In this document: piece by piece, positions 40,094-56,168 of the stretch
Layout: each line of letters begins with the position of its first letter
How positions within the stretch are numbered: position 1 is the stretch's first letter
Assembly (NCBI RefSeq): GCF_000784835.1
Contig: NZ_JSFH01000009.1
Location: 124,001-188,000 of the forward strand
Direction: 5' to 3'
DNA from: Thermotoga sp. Mc24
GTDB taxonomy: Bacteria; Thermotogota; Thermotogae; Thermotogales; Thermotogaceae
DNA: 64,000 nt
Made by a program: the position numbers and the translations under genes
Notes under the pieces: generated by a model
What the model was told of the DNA's origin: nothing
Databases searched by the model: none
What the model saw: the letters and a program-made list of their open reading frames with translations, nothing else

Positions 40094-41059
40094 TCACTGA
40101 CCTCCACCAAACAGGAAATCAATCAGTTTCTTTTCCTTATAAAGCCTTTTGCGAAACTCCATTATGGGCAGGTCACCCTGGACGAGGACATCTTTCCTTA
40201 TGTCCCTCTCCTGGGTCTCCACAACTCTCCTATCCTGGTGGAGGATTATCCTGTTTAAGGGCATGCTTAAACGGGCTATGATGGAATCAACGGGTTTCAA
40301 TCCCGTCATTTTCACGTAAAAGCGGAGGTATATCATGGTTTTCTGCCTGTCCACGGGAACAAAAAAGGCTACCACTCTCGTACCTTCACTTATGTGGTTC
40401 TGCCAGAGGTTGGGAAATATGAACTCAAGGTAAACCCTCGACTCCTCCCCGCTGAGTTCCTCGGGTCTTTTGACCCTCTGCCCCCTATCGACCTCGTTGA
40501 ACACGTAAAAAATGAAACTGTCTTCGTCTATCCACTTGACGACGGGGCCGTGGACCAGGGTCCTGTTTCCCCGGCCTATGGTGGTTCTGTGGACGAAAGG
40601 TAGGTGCATGACGTCGAGCTGGTTCTCAACCGCCCTCGGGAACGGGACGTTCCAGAGCTCCCTGAACTCCGCATAAGCGAAGTCCTCATCTATATCATCG
40701 AAGAACTTTGGCTCCTTCTCTGGCTCTCCTTCTCCGAACCAGAGCCATATTATGTTATTTTTTTCGTAAACCGGGTATGAATTAACCCTAAATCTATCAG
40801 GAACTTTGTAGTTCTTCCCGAGGGCCGGTATAAGCCTCACCCTGCCGTTACCGTCGTACTCAAACCCGTGAAAGGGGCACTGGATTCTATCGTTTATAAC
40901 CTTCCCCGCTGAGAGCCTAGCCCTCCGGTGCACGCAGAAGTCTTCCAGGGCGTAGACTTTTCCCAAGCTGTCCCTCCAGAACACCAGGTCTCTCCCGAGT
41001 CGCCTAACTCCAACGGGTTTTCTCCTCACCTCATTCGATGAAAGAACTGCAAACCACAT
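40094..41059 (-). CDS. Rieske non-heme iron oxygenase, alpha-subunit type
   Basis: A 321-residue oxygenase-like protein. The Rieske [2Fe-2S] motif is CVHRRARL ... CPFHGFEYD (CxH and CxxH) at about residues 38-66. The mononuclear iron motif is in NQLDVMHLPFVH (D-x2-H-x4-H) near 150. This is the layout of pheophorbide a oxygenase / vanillate demethylase-type enzymes that hydroxylate or demethylate with O2. That is odd for a strict anaerobe; the substrate is unknown. ATG 41059 has only a weak ribosome site. It is first of the three-gene group next to tRNA-fMet, and I infer transfer, perhaps from a hyperthermophilic archaeon. Confidence 0.85.
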   Translation of the reverse strand: MWFAVLSSNEVRRKPVGVRRLGRDLVFWRDSLGKVYALEDFCVHRRARLSAGKVINDRIQCPFHGFEYDGNGRVRLIPALGKNYKVPDRFRVNSYPVYEKNNIIWLWFGEGEPEKEPKFFDDIDEDFAYAEFRELWNVPFPRAVENQLDVMHLPFVHRTTIGRGNRTLVHGPVVKWIDEDSFIFYVFNEVDRGQRVKRPEELSGEESRVYLEFIFPNLWQNHISEGTRVVAFFVPVDRQKTMIYLRFYVKMTGLKPVDSIIARLSMPLNRIILHQDRRVVETQERDIRKDVLVQGDLPIMEFRKRLYKEKKLIDFLFGGGQ

Positions 41060-41526: not shown

Positions 41527-41608
41527 ACTTGCCAAATTGTTCCAGGGCTGAAAGGAATGTTTGGTATCACGGTCTTTTGATTACACTCAATTTTAATATC
41601 TCAACCGC

Positions 41609-42781
41609 TCACCCCTCAAACCTCTGAAGAGAAATCAACACACCTCCTGCGATGAGCGCCATGGAAGTGGTTATGAAGATGTGCGCCGTTGCAACGTAAC
41701 TGGAAAGAAATCCAAAGAAACCATAGGAAACGGGCAGTAGCGAGAAAGATACGGCTGAGATCAGAGAAAAGATCTTTCCTCTCATTTCCTCAGGTATTGC
41801 CAGTTGAAGCAGTGTGATAACGTTTATGTTGAAAAGGGTTTGAAAGATTCCAATGAGGAAATACATGGCAAACATAAGCCAATGGTTACCCGTCATGGCA
41901 AACACGAAAACAGCCAGCCCGTATCCCATCAGATTCAAACCCAGGGTTTTCGCACTGGCTCTTGTTTTTATCGTTGCCATCAGAAATGTAACAATCAGCC
42001 CTCCAAACGACAGCATACTCATCAACGTTCCATAAACCCACTCGCTCTTTCCCAGTTTCGAGACGTGCTCAGGTAGCAGAACGTGCATTGAACCTGTGAA
42101 GAAGTTCATGATGGCAATGACCAGTATCGTCACCAGGATGAACCTCACCGATCTTATGTACAAAAGAGCAGATTTTATGTCCTGCCACATCTTCCTTTCT
42201 TTTGATACTTTCTTCAGATGCTTTTCTTCAACCTTTATGAACATCTCAAAGATTCCTGAGATCAAAAAGGACAGAGAATTTATGAGAATCACTCCTGCAA
42301 GTCCCACTACCTTCAGAAGGAAGCTTCCAAGGGCAGGTCCAAGTATTTTTGAGAGGTTCTTCAGCAACCTGTAGAGTGAATTCGCTCTGACCAGGTTTTC
42401 TTTTCTGACCAGATCGGGAAGCAGGGAATCAACTGCTGGATTGAAGAAAGAATCGAACACAGAGACAAGGACGGTGACGATCAAAAGAAGCGCCATCGTT
42501 AACTCTGAGAGGTACTCCATGAGAAACAGACTCATAAACAGAACTCCTCTGAGAAGATCCATAACGACCATCATGTTTCTTCTGCTGTGCCTGTCCACCA
42601 CCGTTCCAGCGAAGGGACTCACTATTATGGCAGGAAGAAAAGAGGATATCATGAAGAGGCCCACGTATTCGCTCGAGCCGGTTTTCGAGTAGAGCCACCA
42701 CGCCAGCGCAACCTGATAGATCCTGGTGCCGATCAGCGAAACGAACGAACCGGCGGCGAAAAGAAGGAGGTTTCTGTTCAA
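41609..42781 (-). CDS. MFS transporter
   Basis: A 390-residue major facilitator with about twelve membrane helices. The A-motif loop after helix 2 reads GTVVDRHSRRNMMVVMD near residues 59-75. The sequence resembles the macrolide-efflux / enterobactin-exporter (DHA3) group, with a long cytoplasmic central loop (EKHLKKVSKERKMWQ). Substrate is unknown. As last gene behind a radical SAM enzyme and a caspase-like protein it may export a peptide or small product (inference). The start is TTG 42781 behind GAGGGGGTG. Confidence 0.85.
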   Translation of the reverse strand: MNRNLLLFAAGSFVSLIGTRIYQVALAWWLYSKTGSSEYVGLFMISSFLPAIIVSPFAGTVVDRHSRRNMMVVMDLLRGVLFMSLFLMEYLSELTMALLLIVTVLVSVFDSFFNPAVDSLLPDLVRKENLVRANSLYRLLKNLSKILGPALGSFLLKVVGLAGVILINSLSFLISGIFEMFIKVEEKHLKKVSKERKMWQDIKSALLYIRSVRFILVTILVIAIMNFFTGSMHVLLPEHVSKLGKSEWVYGTLMSMLSFGGLIVTFLMATIKTRASAKTLGLNLMGYGLAVFVFAMTGNHWLMFAMYFLIGIFQTLFNINVITLLQLAIPEEMRGKIFSLISAVSFSLLPVSYGFFGFLSSYVATAHIFITTSMALIAGGVLISLQRFEG

Positions 42782-42796
42782 CCCCTTTCACCCCCT

Positions 42797-44725
42797 CTAT
42801 ACGTTCTTCAATCTGAAGGTGTAGGTGCTGACACTGAGATTGAAGTCTTCAAACCAGTAAACATAAAGGCAGTAGGTCTTGTTGATTCTCTGATCCGTCT
42901 CTTTCAGGGCCACCTCGACTTCGAACTTTTCCTCCCCACCAGGCTCAAGCGGAAAGATCTGAAAATCTCTGCTCAAGTAAATATTCTCCATCTCGCTTCT
43001 GTTTTCACACCACAGGTTGAAACACACCAGGTTGTTCGTGGTGTGGGCATTTTCGTTCCAGACTTTCACGGAGAAGATCTTTCTGTCGGGTTGCTCGTGA
43101 ACAAGGGCTATCTCAGGATACTTCGGGGGCTGAACGCTCTCGGTGTCAAAAACGTTGTGACAGTTGCTGCAAAATCCAGAGTATCTTTTCACAGGTACGA
43201 GAGTGTTTTCGCTCTCCTTTATCGATAGGTAATTACCGCAGTACGGACACCTGGTGATTTTGTGAAGGTCTTCTTCTGCGCATCTGATCGTCATGTTTTC
43301 GCCGTACACCTCTATGAAGAACTTCGGATTCTGTGAAAGAAGATGATCAGCTAGGAATTTATAGATTCTTTCCTCCACCATCGACAGATTCTTATTCAAT
43401 CTGTGCAGATCGAAGTTCTTCAGGTTTCTGTTTGCTTCATCCAGAACCTCCGTCTGCTCGTTTATCTTCGAGAAGTAATCGTGAACCTGATTCTGGATCT
43501 TCTTGTGCCTGAATCCCAGAAGTTCCAGTTTTCTCATGTTGAAATATCTTTTTGAATACACATCTACTCTTGGCTTTTTCCCCACTCCAAAGATAATTCT
43601 CAATGGCCCATTCACTTCTTCCCAGGAATACAAAAAGAGTTTGACACTGTTTTTGAGCGGATAGGGTATCACCGAGTAGAACACGTCTTTCTTTATCTCA
43701 TTGTTGGAAAACACATAGAACCGCCTTTTCAATACTTCATTGAGAATGTCTTTCTCTGCATGAATCTCCAGAAGCCTCATTCCAGGAATTCTGTCGATAT
43801 CTACAACTATTTCGTTTTTTTCCATTCTCAGCCTGTCTATTTCCAGTTTTTCTGGATTGGTCACCTTTGCGTTCGGAAAGCCATAGAGTATGTATGGGAA
43901 ATAGTCCGAGCAGTGGTTGTAGGAATTCGTGTTCAGGATGTAGAGCACCTCTCCTGCTTCGAATCCATGAGAGATGAGATGGTGGAAAAGCAGAGCCTCA
44001 CTGGTATAGCCTTGCTTTGGTCTATAAGAGCTGATGAGAACTTTCGCGTTCTTCAAAAAATTCATGCCGACATTTATGTAGTCTCCCTTCTCTGAGGTGG
44101 AAATGAGAGTGCTTGAACACGAGTCCATGAAGATACACTCGGCCTGGACATCCTGAGCGTAAACCCTTTTATATTCACAGTTCTGACAGTCCGGGAAGTG
44201 TCTGTATATCTCTTCCAGAGGGATGTCTCTGTTGATTCCGCAGATCTTTCCGTCACTCAGATGCAGATGCCTTCTGTTTCCATCTATCACCATGCTCAAA
44301 CAGAGCTTTTTGTGCTTCATCCTGTCGAAGTTGTTCACCGTGCTTTCGTATCGCGTGAAAACTTCCGCGTTAAGTCTGTGTTTTATACTTTTGTTTTCCT
44401 TCCTCAAGATTATGAGATACTGCTGGGGATCAAGTGCGATCTGTTCCTGATAATTTGCGAGTTTTTCTCTCAGCAGATCGATGGAGAGGGCAGATATGAC
44501 TCCAAAGTAAATGCCCCTGTCTCTGGAGTATTCATATGCCTTCCTCAGGAAATTCTCCGTCAGCAGTTTTGGATCGCACACGATTATGAAGTCATTTTCT
44601 ATCTCTTCCTTTCCTTCGAAGCTATCGGGGGACATTTCATGGATTCTGAATTCATCGAGAAAATCAGCCAATATCCTGGCTGAAAGACCATATTCATCCC
44701 CTCTGAAAGTCACAACCTCAAGCAT
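42797..44725 (-). CDS. Caspase-like (CHAT/C25-type) protein with zinc ribbon
   Basis: A 642-residue protein I cannot place in a named family. Residues ~140-285 look like a caspase-fold domain: HLHLSDG (H153/H155), then ECIFMDSCSS (C203). KVLISSYRPKQGYTSEALLF and FPYILYGFP follow, the pattern seen in CHAT and gingipain-type domains. I infer a Cys-His dyad. A zinc ribbon (CPYC ... CSNC) is near 495-525. The last ~100 residues form a beta-sandwich-like tail. There is no signal peptide. It overlaps the radical SAM gene by eight bases and precedes an MFS gene by 15, so the three act as one unit. The role may be peptide cleavage. Confidence 0.65.
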   Translation of the reverse strand: MLEVVTFRGDEYGLSARILADFLDEFRIHEMSPDSFEGKEEIENDFIIVCDPKLLTENFLRKAYEYSRDRGIYFGVISALSIDLLREKLANYQEQIALDPQQYLIILRKENKSIKHRLNAEVFTRYESTVNNFDRMKHKKLCLSMVIDGNRRHLHLSDGKICGINRDIPLEEIYRHFPDCQNCEYKRVYAQDVQAECIFMDSCSSTLISTSEKGDYINVGMNFLKNAKVLISSYRPKQGYTSEALLFHHLISHGFEAGEVLYILNTNSYNHCSDYFPYILYGFPNAKVTNPEKLEIDRLRMEKNEIVVDIDRIPGMRLLEIHAEKDILNEVLKRRFYVFSNNEIKKDVFYSVIPYPLKNSVKLFLYSWEEVNGPLRIIFGVGKKPRVDVYSKRYFNMRKLELLGFRHKKIQNQVHDYFSKINEQTEVLDEANRNLKNFDLHRLNKNLSMVEERIYKFLADHLLSQNPKFFIEVYGENMTIRCAEEDLHKITRCPYCGNYLSIKESENTLVPVKRYSGFCSNCHNVFDTESVQPPKYPEIALVHEQPDRKIFSVKVWNENAHTTNNLVCFNLWCENRSEMENIYLSRDFQIFPLEPGGEEKFEVEVALKETDQRINKTYCLYVYWFEDFNLSVSTYTFRLKNV

Positions 44726-46547
44726 TCGACATTCCCCCCTGATAGTTGATCATCGATATATCGATACATCGATTCGAGCATCGGGAACAATTTAACTTAC
44801 ATTCTTCATTTGTTGGTATAAAATTCAAAGCCTTAGAATATTCTCTTAATAGATAATCCTCTGATATTAAAGTTTTCTGGATCTTCCAAGGACAGTATTT
44901 ATCAGTATATTCCTCAAAGTACCACGCTGCATTTATACCAAACTCATTCAGGAGATTCTCAAGATCACTGACAGTATTGAAGTTTTTGCTGTGCAAATAG
45001 TGCAATAAGAAAGCTATTTCTAATCCTCCCCTTGAAATCATTGGTTGGAGTAAAGAAATTGGATGAAACACCGTTGTTTCAAATTTTACAAGCGACTCAT
45101 CTTCATTTTCATCTTTTTGTCTTTTTTCCACTTTTTCGTCAACAACATCATTTGATATAACCACAGGAAATCCTTCTTTCTTAACTTTCTCTACGATGTA
45201 AAGGAATCTGTCTCCAATATCCTTAAGCGACGGAAGTTTCACATACTGGAAAGGAGTGAAAGGTTTAGGATATAAAGGATTTATACCTATTTCCAAGCGC
45301 CCATCAGTATTCTTTAGTTTGTTCATTTGATGCCGCACCTTTATTATAAGATCTGCTATCTTATCTAAATCCTCAAATGTCTCGCCAGGTATGGCTAAGA
45401 TAAAGTAAAGACCGAAATCTGGTATGCCATAGAGAGAAGAGATTTTAACCACTTCCAATATTTCCTCATCCTTTATTTCATGTTTACCAATTGCTTTGCG
45501 TAATCTTCCGCTCGTTTCTGGTGCTACAGTTATCTTTCTTTGGCCGGAAACTGCAGCAATCTCTATTATCCGCTTCGACAATTTTTCTAATCTCTGAGAA
45601 CCGATTCTCACTCTTCCTCCTTTTTTTAAAATGTATTCAAGATAATGTTCTACAATCCTAGTTTCTAGTCCTTCATAGAAGAGTTTAATTATTTCCACAT
45701 TAAACTGATCAATTGCTAGATCAACTATTTTCTTGAATGTTTCCCATCTTAAAGTCCTAGGTGGTTTTAACCTATGACCCATATAACAAAATCTGCATCT
45801 TTGGGTACATCCTCGTCTCACTTCTATAGAAAAAACTCTTTCCTCGTAAACGGTATTTTTAGTAACGAATATACTATGTGCTGGATGTGCGTTTATGTCA
45901 ACAGGACTGGTTTGTCTCACCACACCCTTTTGAAAAAAACCGTGAATACAAGGCACGTAAACCCCTTCTATCTGAGAGACAGCCTGCAGGAATTTCACAC
46001 GCTTTCCTATCACATTTCGATAAACTTTGTATAAATCTATGATTTTATGAATAACCTCTTCCGCTTCTCCTAAGACGATGATATCGCAAATTAGAGATAA
46101 TGGCAGCGGATTATAATTAGCTATGGGTCCTCCACCTACTATAATAGGATCATTTTCTTCTCTGAGAAGATTGATCAATGGTATAGAACCCGCTTTCAAA
46201 ATTTTGAAAGCATTTAACACGATTCCTTCATATTGAAAACCAATACCTATGAAATCACTATCTTTTAACTTGAAACCGTATTCGAAAGAAAAAGGCTGAT
46301 CTTCATCTGTGTAACACCTATCAACAGCAACATCATCTCTAAAATACAGCTCTTTATACAGAGTCTGGATTCCTAGATTCGGCAAACCATACTTGTACAT
46401 GTCAGGAAAAGCTAGAATGAAGATGATTTCATTGCCTTTTAAATTTTTGGAAGGAAGTATTCTCTCTTCTTCCTTATAAAGAAGAGAAGTTCTCATGTTT
46501 TCATCCCCCAAAATGACCCATTTCTTGTCCTTTGTACAAATTTTCAT
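44718..46547 (-). CDS. B12-binding-type radical SAM protein
   Basis: A 609-residue protein resembling the TIGR03960-type radical SAM group. The N-terminal half (about 38-170) has the cobalamin-binding-like fold (IIFILAFPDMYKYGLPNLGI, IIVGGGPIANYNPLPLS). The [4Fe-4S] motif is RRGCTQRCRFCYMG with C247, C251 and C254. A C-terminal cluster CKLNCSRCSNRC (C583, C587, C590, C594) could hold a second cluster. Base use is clearly more AT-rich than in both flanks, which suggests recent acquisition. AGGTAAAGG precedes ATG 46547; ATG 46493 is an alternative. Reaction unknown; methylation or thioether chemistry on a peptide is possible. Confidence 0.8.
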   Translation of the reverse strand: MKICTKDKKWVILGDENMRTSLLYKEEERILPSKNLKGNEIIFILAFPDMYKYGLPNLGIQTLYKELYFRDDVAVDRCYTDEDQPFSFEYGFKLKDSDFIGIGFQYEGIVLNAFKILKAGSIPLINLLREENDPIIVGGGPIANYNPLPLSLICDIIVLGEAEEVIHKIIDLYKVYRNVIGKRVKFLQAVSQIEGVYVPCIHGFFQKGVVRQTSPVDINAHPAHSIFVTKNTVYEERVFSIEVRRGCTQRCRFCYMGHRLKPPRTLRWETFKKIVDLAIDQFNVEIIKLFYEGLETRIVEHYLEYILKKGGRVRIGSQRLEKLSKRIIEIAAVSGQRKITVAPETSGRLRKAIGKHEIKDEEILEVVKISSLYGIPDFGLYFILAIPGETFEDLDKIADLIIKVRHQMNKLKNTDGRLEIGINPLYPKPFTPFQYVKLPSLKDIGDRFLYIVEKVKKEGFPVVISNDVVDEKVEKRQKDENEDESLVKFETTVFHPISLLQPMISRGGLEIAFLLHYLHSKNFNTVSDLENLLNEFGINAAWYFEEYTDKYCPWKIQKTLISEDYLLREYSKALNFIPTNEECKLNCSRCSNRCIDISMINYQGGMSNA

Positions 46548-46872
46548 CCTTTACCTCTCACTTGAGCCATCGGTCTTTTTCGCTTCTCCTAAAAGTATAT
46601 TATATACACTCTCTCAAAAAGTTTGCATTTCGCTCCCTGCATCTGTCCCGCCATCAGAATCAAAATCCTCCTCAACAATTCAGGAACCTTCCCACATCTG
46701 TACGGTGCCAATATTTCTCCCTCCGAGCAGATGGTAAAACACCCTATATGGTTTTCAAGTTTTAAAGAAAATTCCTCAATGATTTGAAAAGGACTTACAG
46801 AGCTGTTTTTTAGATCGTAAAATTTCTGTGAGCTTAAGTAAAAATGATTCTTTATGTATAGCAGAACGGGGG
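46548..46872 (-). other. Gene-free stretch with decayed or unusual reading frames
   Basis: No normal gene is visible. One minus-strand frame is open for about 100 codons, ending at a TAG near 46590, but it has no ATG/GTG/TTG until late. Another frame in the same region is interrupted four times, always by TGA, with protein-like stretches between (for example FYHLLGGRNIGTVQMWEGS and ESVYNILLGEAKKTDGS). A -10-like TATAAT lies at 46599-46604 on the minus strand, about 50 bases before the radical SAM gene. I read it as remnant sequence. Confidence 0.4.
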
Positions 46873-47056
46873 TTAGAAACCCTGACTTTCAACAGTTAAA
46901 TCTTCCGAGTGTGACTTCTCCAGCAGGAGAGTGTGAACAACAGTTTTTTCCCTTACTGTCGTTTGATAATCATCAGAAGGACTGGGAAACACGAGCGTGT
47001 ATAAGAGAGAAAGCAGAATAACTATTGTGAGAATGATCCTTACTCACGATTTTCAT
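46873..47056 (-). other. Candidate small exported-peptide gene, copy 1 (needs a frame change)
   Basis: Behind a conserved promoter, translation could start at ATG 47056 or GTG 47047, giving MKIVSK, but that frame soon runs into unrelated residues. Dropping one G at 47038-47039 joins MKIVSK to a frame reading IILTIVILLSLLYTLVF then PSPSDDYQTT and about 30 more residues, stopping at TAA 46873-46875. The result is a textbook signal peptide with a short tail. Copy 2 at 55.5 kb preserves LYxxVFPSxxxDYQTT in the same shifted frame. It is divergent from the TPR-HTH regulator and upstream of the radical SAM gene. It may be a frameshifted peptide gene, a recoded one, or decayed. Confidence 0.4.
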
Positions 47057-47067
47057 CCCCCTTCTTC

Positions 47068-47096
47068 ATTAGAACAGATCTTTTGTGACCTTCCAA
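47068..47096 (-). promoter_or_regulatory. Promoter of the copy 1 small-peptide transcript
   Basis: Minus strand -35 TTGGAA (47091-47096), 17-bp spacer, -10 TCTAAT (47068-47073). The same elements at the same spacing occur in copy 2 (55575-55603), supporting function. Confidence 0.55.
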
Positions 47097-47107
47097 ATCT
47101 TCCTGAT

Positions 47108-47127
47108 TTTGAAAAGCCCTTTTCAAA
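47108..47127. promoter_or_regulatory. Palindrome upstream of the peptide promoter
   Basis: Nine-bp arms TTTGAAAAG (47108-47116) and CTTTTCAAA (47119-47127) around a 2-bp centre. It is imperfect in copy 2 (one changed base). Possible operator. Confidence 0.4.
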
Positions 47128-47167
47128 GCGTTCTGCGATAGAGGATTTTCATTGAGATTTCATATTT

Positions 47168-47195
47168 TGTGTAATTTCACTCCTAACGTTACACA
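47168..47195. promoter_or_regulatory. Inverted repeat, candidate operator of the TPR-HTH regulator (copy 1)
   Basis: TGTGTAA (47168-47174) and TTACACA (47189-47195), separated by 14 bp, just upstream of the regulator start and its weak -10 (TAAAAT, 47205-47210). Present unchanged in copy 2 at 55675-55702. Confidence 0.5.
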
Positions 47196-47241
47196 GCAGT
47201 GTGATAAAATAGCGTAAAATGAGAATTTTGGAGGGAAAGAA

Positions 47242-48849
47242 TTGAAAAGTCATCAACTTTTGAAGGCACTATTTCAGTATGGATTTCTCTTCTCACGGCC
47301 ACTTGTTACATACTGCTTCAAAACATGCCACGATGCAGCCTGGAAACATTACATAAGATTTCTGAAATACCGTCATGAAAAACTCTATGAGGAAGCTCTT
47401 TCAGAAATAGATAACGCAATAAAGGCTTGCAACTCGATCGCCTTTCGCTACTTTCTTCTTTCAGAAAAACTCACCGTGCTCGGTTATATGGGAAAACACG
47501 AGGAAGGAATAAAACTTTACTCTCACTTACGCGGTAGAACGAGAAACGTTTCACCAAAACTCAGGAGTATATTTATTGGGAACCTTCTGAACTATTGCTC
47601 CATGTATCTACACAATGCTTTTGAATGTTTAGGAAGAATAAAGCCAGAGACTCATCATCTGGAGAAAACCTCGTATGCTTTTATACTGATAGGAAAAGCA
47701 AGATATATGGCAAGAACAGGGAACGTCAAAGAAGCGATAGAAGTCTACGAAAAAGCACTGAAAATACTGCAAAAGATTCCTCATCCTTCTGGAACAATCG
47801 CCTGTCTTAACGATATGGCATGGTATACAAAGGAGAAGGATCCAGGAAAAGCTAAAAATATGGCAAAAGAAGCACTCTACTGGAATGGATACTTTTTTGA
47901 TGCTCCGCGATTCTATGCACTGGACACACTGTTTGAGATTCAAAGGGCGACTTTTGACCCCGCAGTTGTTGAAACTGCCAGGCTGATTGTGATCGCTTCT
48001 GAAGGGTTAAAAGACAACGCAAATGATCTCTTGAAAAAGGCACGGAGACTGTGTTTGAGATTGAACAATTCCCTCTACAAAAACACAAAATCTCTCCAGA
48101 GATTTCTGAAGAGAAACACCACATCCATCAAATACCTCTCAGAAATGACGGGTATCGCAAGAAACAGACTGAGCGACATATTAAACGGAAAAACACAAAA
48201 GATCAGGGGAGAAACGTTAAGAAAAATAGCAAAGGCTCTTGAAAAATCCAACATTTTGTCTTTTCCTGCACCCCTGTTAAATGAATGGGTGAAACTGAAG
48301 ATAGAAGAGAATTTCTCGGCTTCATTGAGAGAAATAAAGACAAAAATTTTAGAGGAAAGACAAATCCTTTTTCTTGCCACCTACATGGCTCTTCTTGATA
48401 GAAAATTCCTTTCAAGGAAAGAAAGACTCAAAAAAGCATATACACTTCTTGAAGATATTGAGTCGTTCGCTGATTTCATGGCAAAAGATCACCAGACCAT
48501 GGAATTTGTTGTTTCAATGGTGAAGGCTCATCCTTTCATTGAAGGAAGAAAAGAAGCGGTGAAGAAAGCCCTTGAAAGGATGAAAAGAAAGAGACTGGAA
48601 AGATTCGCCCTGAGATACATCGAGATGAAAGAGCACGACAGAAAACTTCTTGATAGATTTCTGAGGAACTACGGAAGGTACAATGGGGTGAGGTTTGGTG
48701 TCAGGCTAAAGGGCCCGGATGTAGTAAGGGAGTTTGCAAGGAGGTACTCTCTCAAGGTTCAGCCTCTGTTTGTTGCCTTCTGGTGCGAAGAGGACGGCAG
48801 AGTGAGAAGAAGACTGGAAAGAATCTTGAGGCATATGGTCCTGAATTGA
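47242..48849 (+). CDS. TPR-repeat regulator with an internal helix-turn-helix
   Basis: A 535-residue protein without membrane segments. TPR-like helical repeats cover about residues 35-275 (GNVKEAIEVYEKALKILQKI is a clear unit). A helix-turn-helix of the Xre type lies at about 295-335 (SIKYLSEMTGIARNRLSDIL then GKTQKIRGETLRKIAKALE). A basic helical C-terminal part ends in a conserved block (KLLDRFLRNYGRYNGVRFGV). TPR plus HTH recalls peptide-sensing RRNPP regulators, but there the HTH is N-terminal, so the order here is unusual. The start is TTG 47242 behind GGAGGG. It is divergent from a candidate peptide gene and a truncated copy exists at 55.75 kb. Confidence 0.8.
   Translation: MKSHQLLKALFQYGFLFSRPLVTYCFKTCHDAAWKHYIRFLKYRHEKLYEEALSEIDNAIKACNSIAFRYFLLSEKLTVLGYMGKHEEGIKLYSHLRGRTRNVSPKLRSIFIGNLLNYCSMYLHNAFECLGRIKPETHHLEKTSYAFILIGKARYMARTGNVKEAIEVYEKALKILQKIPHPSGTIACLNDMAWYTKEKDPGKAKNMAKEALYWNGYFFDAPRFYALDTLFEIQRATFDPAVVETARLIVIASEGLKDNANDLLKKARRLCLRLNNSLYKNTKSLQRFLKRNTTSIKYLSEMTGIARNRLSDILNGKTQKIRGETLRKIAKALEKSNILSFPAPLLNEWVKLKIEENFSASLREIKTKILEERQILFLATYMALLDRKFLSRKERLKKAYTLLEDIESFADFMAKDHQTMEFVVSMVKAHPFIEGRKEAVKKALERMKRKRLERFALRYIEMKEHDRKLLDRFLRNYGRYNGVRFGVRLKGPDVVREFARRYSLKVQPLFVAFWCEEDGRVRRRLERILRHMVLN
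48611..48840 (+). repeat. Direct repeat A, second segment (regulator 3' end)
   Basis: The last ~77 codons of the regulator match 55930-56160. In the right copy this segment is joined directly to the first 60 codons, so about 1.19 kb (47421-48610) is missing there. Confidence 0.85.
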
Positions 48850-55749: not shown

Positions 55750-56168
55750 TTGAAAAGTCATCGACTTTTGAAAGCACCATTTCAGCATGGATTTCTTTTC
55801 TCACGGCCACTTGTTACATACTGCTTCAAAACGTGCCATGACGCATCCTGGAAACATTACATAAGATTTCTGAAATACCGTCATGAAAAGCTTTATGAGG
55901 AGGCTCTCTCAGAAATAGATAGCGCAATTTGAAATACATCGAGATGAAAGAGTCCGACAGAAAACTCCTTGACAGATTTCTGAGGAATTATGGAAGGTAC
56001 GATGGAGTGAGGTTTGGGATCAGGCTAAAGGGGCCGGATGTGGTGAGAGAGTTTGCAAGTAGGCACTCTCTCAAGGTCCAGCCCCTGTTCGTTGCCTTCT
56101 GGTGCGAAGAAGACGGCAGAGCAAGAAGAAGACTGGTGAGGATATTACACTGGATGACTCAAGAGTGA
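55750..56168 (+). pseudogene. Internally deleted copy of the TPR-HTH regulator
   Basis: From TTG 55750 (site GGAGGG) the frame matches residues 1-60 of the 535-residue regulator, then hits TGA at 55930-55932. The next segment (KYIEMKESDRKLLDRFLRNY ... VAFWCEEDGRARRRL) matches the last ~85 residues and ends at 56168. The TPR core and the helix-turn-helix are gone. Its end overlaps the convergent aldo/keto reductase gene by ten bases. It could still make a 60-residue fragment. Confidence 0.88.

Follow-up and report, generated by a model that had tools for sequence, protein, structure and literature searches.

A candidate caspase-like cysteine enzyme family in export-linked gene cassettes of Thermotoga and haloarchaea

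The described families closest to the protein considered here are peptidase family C25 (gingipain-like, PF01364) and the CHAT proteins (PF12770), accepted relatives within clan CD, whose profiles aligned with each other at an hhalign score of 36.6 and a probability (Prob) of 20%. Two traits of the clan are a cysteine nucleophile placed after a hydrophobic strand and a catalytic histidine followed by glycine. The CHAT proteins of haloarchaea (L054-L073, about 580-730 aa) have, in addition, an invariant cysteine about 8 residues past the catalytic histidine in 20/20 sequences. Two other systems resemble genes that accompany the family. One is the radical SAM family TIGR03960, under which name nothing was found in the open-licence literature; it is characterized by a CxxxCxxC motif, a four-cysteine tail and a Radical_SAM_N2 domain, and proteins like it occur in 44/101 Thermotogota genomes at E <= 1e-40. 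The other is the agrocin 84 cluster of plasmid pAgK84, annotated with agnA (agrocin 84 synthetase), agnB2 (resistant LeuRS), agnC5 (MccF-like) and agnG (efflux); the agn gene names searched for are absent from the main text of PMC6429109.

The window, i.e. the whole stretch of 64,000 nucleotides of Thermotoga sp. Mc24 DNA that was analysed, contains the gene of the caspase-like protein P0001 within a compact cassette (Table 1). The reading frame of P0001 was found exactly where a preliminary description, made from the sequence alone, had placed it, and so was its 8-base overlap with the radical SAM gene, the common bases being 44718-44725. The comparison genomes of the genus are taken by us to be those of T. 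maritima, T. neapolitana and T. petrophila, and the T. maritima counterpart of the cassette is presumably TM1335-TM1339, TM1338 included, judging by gene order. Relative to the T. maritima copies, dN/dS amounted to 0.12 (P0001), 0.18 (radical SAM) and 0.09 (MFS). These are real genes under selection.

Table 1. Positions in the window of the features of the Thermotoga cassette and of the P0001 protein
Feature	Position	Strand	Basis or remark
Caspase-like family protein P0001, 642 aa	42797..44725	-	ORF from ATG start
Predicted catalytic half, residues 115-292	43850..44383	-	C25/CHAT-like profile similarity
H153, sole invariant histidine of the family	44267..44269	-	11/11 rows
C162, invariant	44240..44242	-	11/11 rows
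C180 and C183, invariant, between H153 and C203	44177..44188	-	11/11 rows
C203, predicted nucleophile	44117..44119	-	11/11 rows; falls on the catalytic Cys in C25 and CHAT
Zinc ribbon C493-x2-C496 ... C519-x2-C522	43160..43249	-	11/11 rows
C-terminal tail (residues 535-642), a probable beta-sandwich	42800..43123	-	Weak Fn3-like matches; strands in a model of low confidence
Radical SAM protein P0002, divergent TIGR03960 relative	44718..46547	-	CTQRCRFC motif, four-Cys tail; likelier start at 46496
MFS exporter (MFS_3 / TIGR00900 type)	41609..42781	-	15 bases downstream of the P0001 gene
Divergent TPR + helix-turn-helix regulator	47242..48849	+	N-terminal part strongly diverged from T. maritima
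Probably replaced or exchanged tract	41553..46904		93.4% identity to the T. maritima cassette, with a flank at 99.1%; sequence comparison
Frame for a small hydrophobic peptide	46873..47043	-	Lacks an ATG/GTG/TTG start; an ORF of 65 aa occupies the equivalent place in T. maritima

The earlier statement that the family is unknown holds for the libraries searched: Pfam, NCBIfam, PADLOC and the PDB sequences offered nothing convincing. PF01364 gave no match to P0001 and was not among the 25 Pfam families most matched by 11 members of the family (E <= 10); PF12770 was absent from the same tables, and P0001 does not reach the Pfam cut-off of either. Weak matches were obtained with zinc ribbons (residues about 480-530) and, over the helical segment, with coiled coils; a PDB profile search aligned part of C5a peptidase with the C-terminal tail (E 0.09), and PHROGs gave a single marginal match, over the zinc ribbon. 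The Rfam search of the whole window yielded four tRNAs and nothing else. No description of the family was found in the open-licence literature, and P0001 belongs to an undescribed family whose proteins, of about 640 aa, are probably cytosolic.

Concerning distribution, the genome-by-genome search covered the Thermotogota among bacteria, and samples of archaea. Full-length members were found in four Thermotoga genomes and, as nine proteins, in six haloarchaeal genomes. The Thermotoga copies represent 4/103 Thermotogota genomes and 4/7 within the genus, and a close ortholog of P0002 (92% identity or more) is present in the same four. A fifth Thermotoga genome contains a short fragment of P0001 with three stops (single-protein search), and the profile search of Thermotogota gave two genomes matching in the C-terminal domain only; none of these three was counted. 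The haloarchaeal members came to light in several ways: a tblastn search of plasmids gave two haloarchaeal records with 23-25% identity, a scan of genome contigs showed that Halorussus litoreus carries a member, and in an even sample of the class 9/391 genomes matched, five with full-length proteins (E < 1e-150) and four with short, weak matches that were not counted. Within one haloarchaeal family (that of G103) 4/28 genomes have a full-length copy. In the archaeal phylum sample of 392 genomes, the six matches comprised two full-length genomes already known and four weak partial ones. Viral contigs, phage records and further plasmids gave no family member beyond the two haloarchaeal plasmids. 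Two partial copies (L089 and L090) lie on a replicon, presumably a plasmid of Halorussus salilacus, that also bears an intact copy.

The similarity to clan CD was evaluated by comparing the family profile with profiles of 20 haloarchaeal CHAT proteins and of archaeal C25 proteins (30 loci, of which 27 rows were used from the comparison of residues 115-292 onwards, three rows shorter than 250 aa being left out). With the full-length family, hhalign gave scores of 27.6 against C25 (P 0.018) and 29.6 against CHAT (P 0.02), and both alignments set C203 on the catalytic cysteine. With residues 115-292 the scores were 25.3 and 28.3, and they exceeded those of 200/200 column-shuffled alignments against each family (C25, mean 13.3, maximum 23.4; CHAT, mean 15.3, maximum 28.0), the closest CHAT null (27.98) being nearly equal to the observed value (28.29). 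Reversed alignments scored 13.5 and 15.6, and nine unrelated families reached at most 23.5 with the domain query and 22.8 with the full-length query, below C25 and CHAT in every case. Because the family outscores shuffles and controls, although its absolute hhalign probabilities are just 2-8%, a clan-CD core (caspase, gingipain C25 or CHAT-like) with C203 as the nucleophile is considered likely on profile similarity. The low probabilities, together with the lack of a convincing library match, would also suit a chance match around the cysteine strand of some other alpha/beta fold; this is unlikely, as two independent families align the same cysteine and do so better than all the shuffles and the nine controls.

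Structure prediction contributed little to this question. AlphaFold models built from 3-row alignments had a mean pLDDT of 40.6 for full P0001 and 40.9 for residues 1-304, and in the latter values of 50-73 were reached only at about residues 1-90, in an alternating beta/alpha unit. A Foldseek search with this poor domain model returned 0 matches at E <= 0.001, with designed Rossmann folds at the top, a result taken as meaningless for the catalytic half.

The caspase-like core proposed earlier was borne out to a moderate degree. C203, placed after a hydrophobic strand, is conserved in 11/11 members and by alignment falls on the catalytic cysteine of both CHAT and C25 (27/27 rows of the latter); the family and the haloarchaeal CHAT proteins have similar nucleophile strands of the FFLNACGS type, R235 falls on the arginine of the C25 motif G-S-S-R (18/27 rows), and G282-x-P284 falls on G-D-P (25/27 rows). 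On the other hand, no HG is conserved: H153 is invariant and never precedes a glycine, and the GH of CHAT (20/20) has no conserved equivalent in the family. The family differs from C25 also in escaping detection by Pfam, in its zinc ribbon and in its export-cassette context, and from CHAT in its flanking domains.

The conservation of single residues was studied in an alignment (A4) of 11 bacterial and archaeal rows with about 20% identity, from which the orthologs of T. maritima and T. petrophila were omitted (they share 98.6-100% identity with that of T. neapolitana). Invariant positions (11/11) include G149, H153, C162, C180, C183, C203, R235, E259, N265, G282 and P284, as well as the four zinc-ribbon cysteines C493, C496, C519 and C522. 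By comparison of such distant sequences, the identity of H153, C203, G282, P284 and the ribbon cysteines across all rows is more than chance. The preliminary description had pointed out H153, H155, C203, the segment YILYGFP (residues 278-284), a zinc ribbon and a beta-sandwich tail. The residues and the segment are where it had put them, and the ribbon was found as described; H155, however, is histidine in 2/11 rows, both from Thermotoga, and was rejected as catalytic because it is not conserved. C162, C180 and C183 had been missed. The tail fared less well, as the evidence for it consists of weak Fn3-like matches (2/11 members, best E 0.07) and a low-confidence model. Along the chain, the clan-CD core would be succeeded by a helical segment, then by the zinc ribbon and by a probable beta-sandwich.

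The proposed H153/C203 dyad is putative: both residues are invariant, and the registers disagree on the canonical histidine. An extension of the C25 alignment puts the C25 histidine near D158; by our own count of the HG-loop spacing against the caspase-1 motif, D148 would presumably occupy that place; the CHAT alignment with an insertion removed places it at H153; and in another CHAT alignment GHC...C lies opposite the C180/C183 region. This bears on a somewhat doubtful explanation in which the fold is clan-CD-like and the protein is no classical protease: the canonical histidine would have been lost, H153, C162, C180 and C183 would form a metal site near C203, and the protein would be a metalloenzyme, an acyl-transfer or ligase variant, or a dead scaffold. 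The four putative ligands are all invariant, and the canonical-histidine registers 148 and 158 hold histidine in just 2/11 and 0/11 rows. However, one register does put H153 on the catalytic histidine of CHAT, with C162 close to the cysteine invariant in the haloarchaeal CHAT proteins, and C203 is kept in every member.

Concerning the radical SAM partner, P0002 belongs to the superfamily, as its CTQRCRFC motif at 247 is of the CxxxCxxC type and PF04055 matched with 57.7 bits, above the Pfam cut-off. The cluster motif was present in 16/16 relatives compared, and a similar four-cysteine tail in most of them. P0002 shares with TIGR03960 both of these features and the Radical_SAM_N2 domain, but its score of 224.6 bits over residues 33-594 lies below the curated cut-off of 462.3 bits. 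It is a divergent second TIGR03960-like copy, 32% identical to the other copy of its host genome; of 101 genomes searched, only four, all of Thermotoga, contain it. In the three orthologs the extra N-terminus is interrupted by an in-frame stop, and because of this the translation of P0002 probably starts at the ATG at 46496. The DxHxxG motif is that of the cobalamin-binding domain. The earlier label of a B12-type enzyme finds backing in the family resemblance to TIGR03960, while the B12-binding match in Pfam is below the cut-off (E 0.059) and the P0002 sequence lacks DxHxxG; because of this lack, the use of cobalamin is regarded as putative.

The cassette seems to have a history of its own. 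Relative to T. maritima and T. petrophila, identity drops from 99.1% on the 35-41.5 kb side to 93.4% within the tract listed in Table 1, and in T. neapolitana the cassette is flanked by other sequence; because of both facts, it has probably been exchanged between Thermotoga strains. In three Thermotoga genomes the MFS gene is followed by the gene of a 258-aa protein of tandem WQKTLGG repeats (L044:12392-13168), which is missing from the window, where the junction lies at about 41553; it was dropped as a candidate substrate of the cassette because of that absence. Outside the exchanged tract, at 40094-41029, the window encodes a Rieske/VanA-type oxygenase-like protein. When precursor peptides of the RiPP type were sought, a single small hydrophobic ORF was found upstream, the window copy of which lacks a usual start codon, and no convincing precursor emerged.

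In the region 46548-48849, the TPR-HTH regulator is 18-42% identical to its T. maritima counterpart in N-terminal blocks and 86-90% in C-terminal blocks, and the small ORF with a hydrophobic start beside it also differs between strains. This looks like a peptide-sensing pair with strain-specific variants, which we presume to be RRNPP-like. A 79-aa remnant of the C-terminus of the same regulator (55929-56168), 83-86% identical to other Thermotoga copies, lies beside ABC transporter genes. The regulator next to a CHAT-like core might also bring to mind a defence or signalling effector of the CHAT type under TPR-HTH control. The PADLOC search of the 11 members gave no convincing match (best E 0.0091, in one member), and because of this P0001 was rejected as a defence system; the linkage to exporters is a second argument that makes such an effector most improbable.

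That linkage emerges from the haloarchaeal neighbourhoods. The eight stretches correspond to seven loci, since L047 and L048 (91% identical proteins) were counted once; their genes were called by a script, and some were identified by Pfam, NCBIfam or record annotation. An exporter is found within three genes in 6/7 loci: of MFS type at L006, MATE at L007, ABC-2 with its ATPase at L047/L048, and MFS_3 type at L050, L051 and L052, these three being 46-50% identical among themselves. At L049 there is none within three genes, and the copy adjoins adenylate kinase and pilus-type genes. For reference, 150 kb of annotation from one of the haloarchaeal plasmids lists 136 features, and three of them are of exporter type (MFS, MATE, EamA), or six when an ABC importer set is counted. 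With an assumed 20% per locus, the probability of at least 6/7 loci would be 0.0004, a value to be read as post hoc, given that the three-gene window was chosen after looking at the data. Near the haloarchaeal copies there are also S66 and M32 carboxypeptidases, an amidase, aminotransferases, an O-methyltransferase and an AsnRS-like enzyme. L006 sits among sugar genes, and it has amidase and sugar-type genes in common with L052; because of these the contexts are viewed as mixed. The preliminary description had seen in P0001 and P0002 a distinctive peptide-maturation pair. Their adjacency is a fact in Thermotoga, while no gene was identified as radical SAM among the part of the genes searched in the eight haloarchaeal stretches, and no convincing precursor was found; judging by these neighbourhoods, the pairing looks lineage-specific, being seen only in Thermotoga.

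The most surprising lead is the agrocin-like context of L047/L048 (L047:10796-17914 and L048:10630-17749). The order there is AsnRS-like protein, ABC ATPase, ABC-2 permease, S66 peptidase and caspase-like gene, with an archaeal-type LeuRS gene divergent from the operon. These loci combine an AsnRS-like synthetase, a LeuRS and an MccF-like peptidase, a set that is absent from the Thermotoga cassette. They share with the pAgK84 cluster the AsnRS-like synthetase, the MccF-like/S66 peptidase, the LeuRS and an exporter. They differ from it in that the ABC-2 exporter is inside the operon, that the AsnRS-like protein, with just 24.5% identity to AgnA, resembles AsnA more, and that they include the caspase-like gene, of which hmmsearch found no relative in the pAgK84 stretch. 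A Xenorhabdus plasmid also brings together an AsnA-like gene, an LD-carboxypeptidase, leuS and an MFS gene, and hmmsearch of the stretch of it that was covered found no caspase-like relative either. No agrocin-like gene set in haloarchaea was found in the open-licence literature. The two genomes (G107 and G195) have two further LeuRS-like genes each, by our reading. Since several LeuRS forms are known from haloarchaea (PMC3436685), that the LeuRS of the cluster is a dedicated spare is something we infer.

The aminoacyl-tRNA synthetases might instead be taken, with the TIGR03960-type partner, as signs of tRNA or ribosome chemistry, the zinc ribbon binding RNA. The wide occurrence of TIGR03960-like proteins in Thermotogota and the AsnRS-like enzyme and LeuRS beside L047 would fit an enzyme linked to translation or RNA, yet the distribution of the family is patchy and accessory (see above for Thermotogota and the family of G103), exporters are linked to it, and the synthetase pair is better explained as antibiotic synthesis plus self-immunity. 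Such a role is very unlikely.

The preferred reading, to which we would give a probability of roughly 0.4, is that P0001 is a clan-CD-like biosynthetic cysteine enzyme, with C203 as nucleophile, in an export-coupled metabolite or peptide cassette. Gene order, the 8-base overlap, conservation, purifying selection, co-occurrence within the genus and exporter linkage are established; we infer the fold, the nucleophile, the substrate and the order of steps. The family would travel in accessory, export-linked cassettes, the one of Thermotoga being made up of the radical SAM enzyme, the caspase-like enzyme and the MFS exporter, with the divergent TPR-HTH regulator. The radical SAM enzyme would modify a small peptide or an amino-acid-derived precursor, P0001 would cleave this precursor or transfer its acyl group via a thioester at C203, the zinc ribbon and the tail may serve to bind either that precursor or some carrier, and the MFS pump would export the resulting product. 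A bolder version is quite unlikely in all its details: a new caspase-fold family serving natural products in Thermotoga and haloarchaea, rather than general proteolysis or cell death, with an agrocin-84-like LeuRS inhibitor and a spare LeuRS in haloarchaea, a radical-SAM-modified exported product in Thermotoga and, possibly, a Cys/His metal patch that stands in for the usual histidine.

If the preferred reading is true, an undescribed family of cysteine enzymes would join the caspase/gingipain clan, this family would be tied to cassettes for small-molecule export in both bacteria and archaea, and there would be a handle on the radical SAM enzymes of the TIGR03960 type. The comparison further suggests that haloarchaea have a set of agrocin-like antibiotic genes.
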